Positions 2,412 to 2,780 of a stretch of 64,000 bases of DNA are shown piece by piece. The stretch covers positions 124,001 through 188,000 of the forward strand of contig JAJPKR010000027.1 of NCBI GenBank assembly GCA_021323595.1. The letters are read 5' to 3'. The translations under genes were made by a program, and so were the position numbers. The stretch comes from Terriglobia bacterium (GTDB lineage Bacteria; Acidobacteriota; Terriglobia; Terriglobales; SCQP01). The stretch's first letter is position 1; every line of letters begins with the position of its first letter. The notes beneath the pieces are model-generated. The model was not told the DNA's origin, searched no databases, and saw only the letters and a program-made list of their open reading frames with translations.

Positions 2412-2780
2412 ATGAAGCGGCAACCGAAAGTCAGCGTGGAGCGGATCGGGTTGGACGAGCTCGGCCGCGATCTGAAGGATATCGTTTTCGTGGACGCGCG
2501 CAGCGCGACGGCGTTGGCCAGAAATCCTGCCGAGGTGCCCGGAGCCATTCATGTGCCGATCAAGGCGCTGGACGCGGCAGTCAAGAAACTGCCGCACAGA
2601 CGCCCCCTGGTTACGTATTGCACCTGAAGCCACGAAAAGACGAGCGCCCGGGTGGCGCGCGAATTGACGGAGCGTGGCTACAAAGACGTCCGCGTGCTGC
2701 GCGGAGGATTCAAGGCTTGGCAGAACGCCGCGTTGCCCACGCAGGCGACCGAAGGCAGCGGCAAGCGCCCGCGGAAATGA
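2412..2780 (+). CDS. rhodanese-like sulfurtransferase, probable selenoprotein (in-frame TGA = Sec72)
   Basis: Reading from ATG 2412, the frame encodes a single-domain rhodanese interrupted once, by TGA at 2625-2627, and then continues as clear rhodanese sequence to TGA 2778-2780 (122 codons). Before the TGA: FVDARSATAL and EVPGAIHVP. Around it: LVTYC-T-(TGA)-SHEKTSARVA. After it: RELTERGYKDVRVL and RGGFKAW. Related rhodaneses (from memory) have a YCxCPxE active-site loop, so the TGA sits at the second loop Cys, next to catalytic Cys70. The SECIS-like stem-loop starts at the base after TGA. Read as a normal stop, the product would be 71 aa and lack half the active-site loop. TACGAT six bases before ATG suggests a leaderless mRNA. 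No sel genes are in the window; a nonsense mutation is the alternative. Confidence 0.8.
2628..2679 (+). promoter_or_regulatory. bacterial SECIS-like stem-loop inside the rhodanese gene
   Basis: AGCCACG (2628-2634), directly after the TGA, is perfectly complementary to CGTGGCT (2673-2679). Nested inside, GCGCC (2644-2648) pairs with GGCGC (2654-2658) around the apical loop CGGGT (2649-2653). Two further pairs (2641-2642 with 2660-2661) extend the upper stem past an A/G mismatch. The apical loop begins 22 nt after the TGA and carries a GGGU, as expected for SelB-binding bacterial SECIS elements, whose loops usually lie about 16-37 nt downstream and contain conserved G/U bases. The element is inside coding sequence that stays rhodanese-like. 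Confidence 0.75.

Follow-up and report, generated by a model that had tools for sequence, protein, structure and literature searches.

The rhodanese reading frame at positions 2412 to 2780 of the window (the whole 64,000-nucleotide stretch of Terriglobia DNA that was analysed) contains an in-frame TGA, which raises the question of whether the gene is broken or encodes a selenoprotein. Comparison with related genes leaves little doubt that selenocysteine (Sec) would be inserted at UGA codon 72. The TGA is taken to be a Sec codon because relatives across the phylum keep both the TGA and a hairpin downstream of it, and because the genome has the decoding machinery. With the standard code the gene is seen as two fragments or as a pseudogene, and the same applies to its relatives across a large phylum. 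Recognition of such genes adds dozens of selenoproteins. The features of the locus are as follows.

2412–2780, + strand: predicted selenoprotein rhodanese gene, stop codon included (PF00581 match; fold by AlphaFold2/Foldseek)
2619–2621, + strand: codon 70 (TGC), encoding the presumed catalytic Cys in the rhodanese loop (the same residue in all 39 relatives aligned)
2625–2627, + strand: in-frame TGA, very likely read as Sec, residue 72 (67 TGA homologues; selABC and selD present)
2644–2658, + strand: putative SECIS hairpin with stem GCGCC/GGCGC and apical loop CGGGT at 2649–2653, the pairing conserved in TGA homologues
2628–2679, + strand: outer stem around the hairpin, 2628–2634 with 2673–2679, private to this gene and probably incidental

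The rhodanese frame and its product

The frame runs from an ATG at 2412–2414 to a terminator TGA at 2778–2780, and the TGA at 2625–2627 (codon 72) is its sole interruption. The start is a predicted one and lines up with that of the nearest relative. The product is 122 residues long, and its Sec would be residue 72, two past the putative catalytic Cys70; a +2 position from the rhodanese catalytic Cys is unusual for Sec. The read-through product matches the Pfam rhodanese family PF00581 over residues 21–106 (E 2.8e-14), at 53.8 bits against a gathering cut-off of 22.2. The first-pass annotation had described an intact rhodanese with one in-frame TGA beside Cys70, and the coordinates and the Pfam match agree with this description. 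An AlphaFold2 model built from the protein's own relatives shows the rhodanese fold with a mean pLDDT of 86. Foldseek aligns this model with solved rhodaneses at probability 1.00, GlpE among them, and the matches include the rhodanese domains of persulfide dioxygenase and persulfide reductase.

The gene stands alone, flanked by an alpha-galactosidase-like gene and a DUF302 gene, both on the opposite strand. A conserved gene neighbourhood was not found within 1.5 kb at 22 stand-alone loci.

Conservation of the TGA and the downstream hairpin

The search for homologues covered 397 genomes from the order and 396 from the phylum, and the DNA was then read at the codon. Among the distinct homologues collected from order and phylum, 67 have TGA at the codon 72 position and 28 have TGC or TGT; TAA or TAG was never seen there among the genes read. 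An in-frame UGA that is aligned with Cys in homologues, which is a criterion for a selenoprotein, is thus found here, and relatives with Cys at this position had been expected from the outset. The TGA set is made up of stand-alone rhodaneses (YCTU-PNEGSSASLAQKL...) and of rhodanese domains that end longer proteins. The Cys set consists mostly of fusions, plus one stand-alone gene (G574, YCTC-PHEHSSSKV). Residues invariant in 39 aligned members include Asp28, Arg30, Pro61, Tyr69, Cys70, Thr71, residue 72 and Glu75. On a tree of the domain, drawn from a short alignment and with many forks unresolved, the TGA/Cys label requires 3 changes, as compared with 24 when the labels are shuffled.

The nearest relative (G002) belongs to a different genus within the same family; it is 55% identical and has TGA at the same codon. 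A scan of named genomes gave distant relatives only, and a scan of viral contigs found no relatives. Relatives on plasmids all have less than 60% identity, and the one that was read (Burkholderia) has Cys.

The hairpin has a 5-bp stem and a 5-nt loop, with a spacing of 21 nt between TGA and loop. It fits the published bSECIS model, which calls for a loop of 3–9 nt with G in the first two positions, a stem of 4–16 bp and a distance of 16–37 nt from the UGA (PMC13188914). Taken by itself, the hairpin is no evidence, because the fold of this sequence is no better than that of shuffled sequences (z = −0.74; 44 of 200 shuffles equally stable) and, on the + strand of the window, 24% of the TGA triplets have a loosely SECIS-like hairpin after them. 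Neither Rfam RF00031 nor a search of the region against all of Rfam gave a SECIS match; RF00031 is likewise silent in all 14 control genomes, so that its silence here carries no weight.

What raises the hairpin above chance is that relatives keep the inner hairpin together with the TGA. All five stem pairs are present in 65 of 67 TGA genes (four pairs in the remaining two) and in none of the 28 Cys genes, and a G is found at loop position 1 or 2 in 67/67 TGA genes as against 0/28 Cys genes. Fisher's test gives p = 5e-22 for the contrast, a value that overstates its significance because the sequences are related and not independent; kinship notwithstanding, the contrast is complete. Loops among the TGA genes are CGGGU, CGUGU, AGUUU and close variants. 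Compensatory changes (C-G to U-A and G-C to A-U) occur in two of the five stem pairs, with 3 compensatory cells observed and 0.1 expected in shuffles. When synonymous codons are drawn for any single TGA sequence, a perfect stem appears in only 3–7% of draws.

The first-pass annotation had proposed two nested stems after the TGA. The inner one stands, as it is conserved in the TGA genes, but the outer one does not. The seven pairs of the outer stem are found together in none of 53 other TGA relatives tested, which mostly have 1–3 pairs, and for this reason it is not counted within the SECIS element. It is probably incidental.

Decoding of UGA in the host genome

The host genome, 97.6% complete, encodes a tRNA-Sec with anticodon TCA, a full-length SelB (346 bits), SelA (521 bits) and SelD (352 bits). 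The first-pass annotation had suggested a look-up of selA, selB, selC and selD as a check and had named a lack of selB or selC as a refutation; all four genes are present, which is a further criterion for a selenoprotein. Because all four components are there, UGA is very probably read as Sec in the host. In the order as a whole, SelA is found in 47 of the 49 genomes that have a TGA form among the matches listed; the two without it are incomplete drafts (82–83%). SelA is present in 12 of 94 genomes of the order with Cys only, again among the matches listed.

Two other observations concern this machinery. The SelD gene of the host (L052, G000:C5:39148-40068) itself has an in-frame TGA, SKAAG-U-ASKLS, and is a selenoprotein candidate. 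Adjoining the tRNA-Sec gene (L001, 1501–1596) is a gene at 1842–2474 on the − strand for a putative Tat-exported rhodanese-like protein (VVLYCGCCPWVKCPN), recognised by eye.

It might be argued that an ordinary rhodanese gene acquired the TGA by chance as a nonsense change, i.e. that the gene is a pseudogene or carries a sequencing error. The RNA fold of this sequence is by itself not significant, and the gene is missing from most genomes of the same family, where the TGA-bearing form is found in only 2 of 14; both points speak for this reading. Against them stand 67 distinct genes that have TGA at this very codon, a frame that is otherwise open, the conserved hairpin and the lack of TAA or TAG at codon 72. 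TGA is also kept in another genus at 55% identity, and TGA and inner stem are conserved together, so a random nonsense change beside an unconserved stem, which the first-pass annotation had set against a selenoprotein, is refuted in practice and is extremely improbable. Hardly more credible is that the UGA is recoded otherwise, for example by Trp suppression, or that a regulated short form ending at Thr71 is functional. No point in favour of this reading was found. Counterparts have Cys and not Trp at position 72, the Sec machinery is complete, a SECIS-like hairpin is in place, and the part of the rhodanese domain 3′ of the TGA, its second half, is strongly conserved.

Proposed chemistry and related families

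With Sec as residue 72, a mechanism can be put forward. SelB would bind the hairpin, which lies 21 nt downstream, and bring Sec-tRNA-Sec to UGA codon 72, and the active site of the product would be Cys70-Thr-Sec72 (CxU). Cys70, in the rhodanese cradle loop, would accept a sulfane sulfur or become oxidised. Sec72 could then attack Cys70 to form a Cys70-Sec72 selenenylsulfide with release of the sulfur, after which the active site would be restored by a cellular thiol reductant. The enzyme would thus be a sulfurtransferase with persulfide-reductase character. This chemistry, in which a Cys70 persulfide is resolved by Sec72, is proposed tentatively, as are the catalytic cycle and the substrate.

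A selenoprotein that is no sulfurtransferase has to be weighed against it. Here the CxU would be a plain thiol-selenol redox couple, acting for example on a disulfide or a peroxide. CxU and CxC are redox-pair motifs, and the loop C-T-U-[PS]-x-E is unlike the one usual in rhodaneses. Where the function of a selenoprotein is known, it is mostly that of an oxidoreductase (PMC2398784), which would also fit a redox role. Within 1.5 kb of the 22 stand-alone loci, no gene is conserved that would indicate sulfur metabolism or the substrate, which makes the plain redox role a strong competitor and a distinct possibility, if short of an even one. What speaks against it is that the rhodanese fold and the position of the catalytic Cys are kept. 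Resolution of a Cys70 persulfide by Sec72 also frames a broader and more doubtful proposal: that a phylum-wide radiation of CxU rhodaneses, lying outside the described equivalog and including DedA/VTT fusions with the same Sec, uses Sec72 as a dedicated resolver, so that these proteins might be selenium-dependent persulfide reductases and not classical rhodaneses.

The CxU rhodanese selenoprotein is as a kind known, not new. It is listed in reviews (PMC9312934; PMC13188914, as rhodanese form 3, NF041203), in keeping with the first-pass annotation, which mentions Sec-containing rhodanese-like proteins in metagenome surveys. The family that the window protein matches best is NCBIfam NF041203 (rhodanese_LYCAU, rhodanese-related (seleno)protein); the match covers almost the entire model (E 5e-24), and all 39 aligned relatives match this model. 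With NF041203 the protein shares a single rhodanese domain and CxU at the catalytic loop (C70-T71-U72). It differs in its motif, YCTU-SHE/PNE, compared with the LYCAU of the model's name. It scores 84.4 bits and its nearest relative 79.9; because 84.4 bits is less than the curated cut-off of 115, the protein is placed outside the curated equivalog. Although below this cut-off, it is predicted to function like an equivalog member.

Two other rhodaneses are useful for comparison. TsoB, a rhodanese/DsbD fusion (NF045694), is also a rhodanese-domain selenoprotein, but its motif (UxxxxU) and architecture are different, and the window protein reaches only 19 bits, where the cut-off is 805. Escherichia coli GlpE (1gmx), a classical single-domain thiosulfate sulfurtransferase, has the same fold with the catalytic Cys in the same place but is without Sec, and it is not known to have a second chalcogen residue at +2.

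Fusions of DedA/VTT with rhodanese (COG0586 with PF00581) are noted in a passage of PMC10127716, which mentions them without Sec. They have the same rhodanese domain and Cys70-Thr-X72, where X72 in the phylum is either Cys or, in genes with the TGA and the hairpin, Sec. These fusions are membrane-anchored by the DedA domain, whereas the window gene stands alone. The same TGA and SECIS hairpin are seen in DedA/VTT-rhodanese fusions and similar longer proteins with the rhodanese domain near the C-terminus (L069, L074, L087, L089, L091, L094–L111, L130, L133 and L151). The DedA/VTT domain was confirmed by Pfam for one TGA fusion and one Cys fusion. No description of Sec in DedA-rhodanese fusions was found in the open-access papers searched, which is weak evidence that such proteins are new. 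The natural Sec/Cys pairs, DedA fusions included, can be used to probe what selenium contributes to persulfide chemistry.

Less noticed so far are the phylum-wide spread, Sec in the DedA-rhodanese fusions and the presence in this genome of a second likely Sec-rhodanese (CWGHDU). The latter is a PF00581 rhodanese at L035 1501–1782, − strand (G000:C22:34497-34778), with an in-frame TGA in VTYCWGHD-U-QLSAKAALQLAERGF, and is probably another Sec-rhodanese, with a CxxxxU motif. It is conserved at 59% identity in another genus (L024 1501–1785, − strand; G007:C340). Downstream of its TGA is a hairpin, UCUGC-AGUUG-GCAGA, which is common to the two loci.
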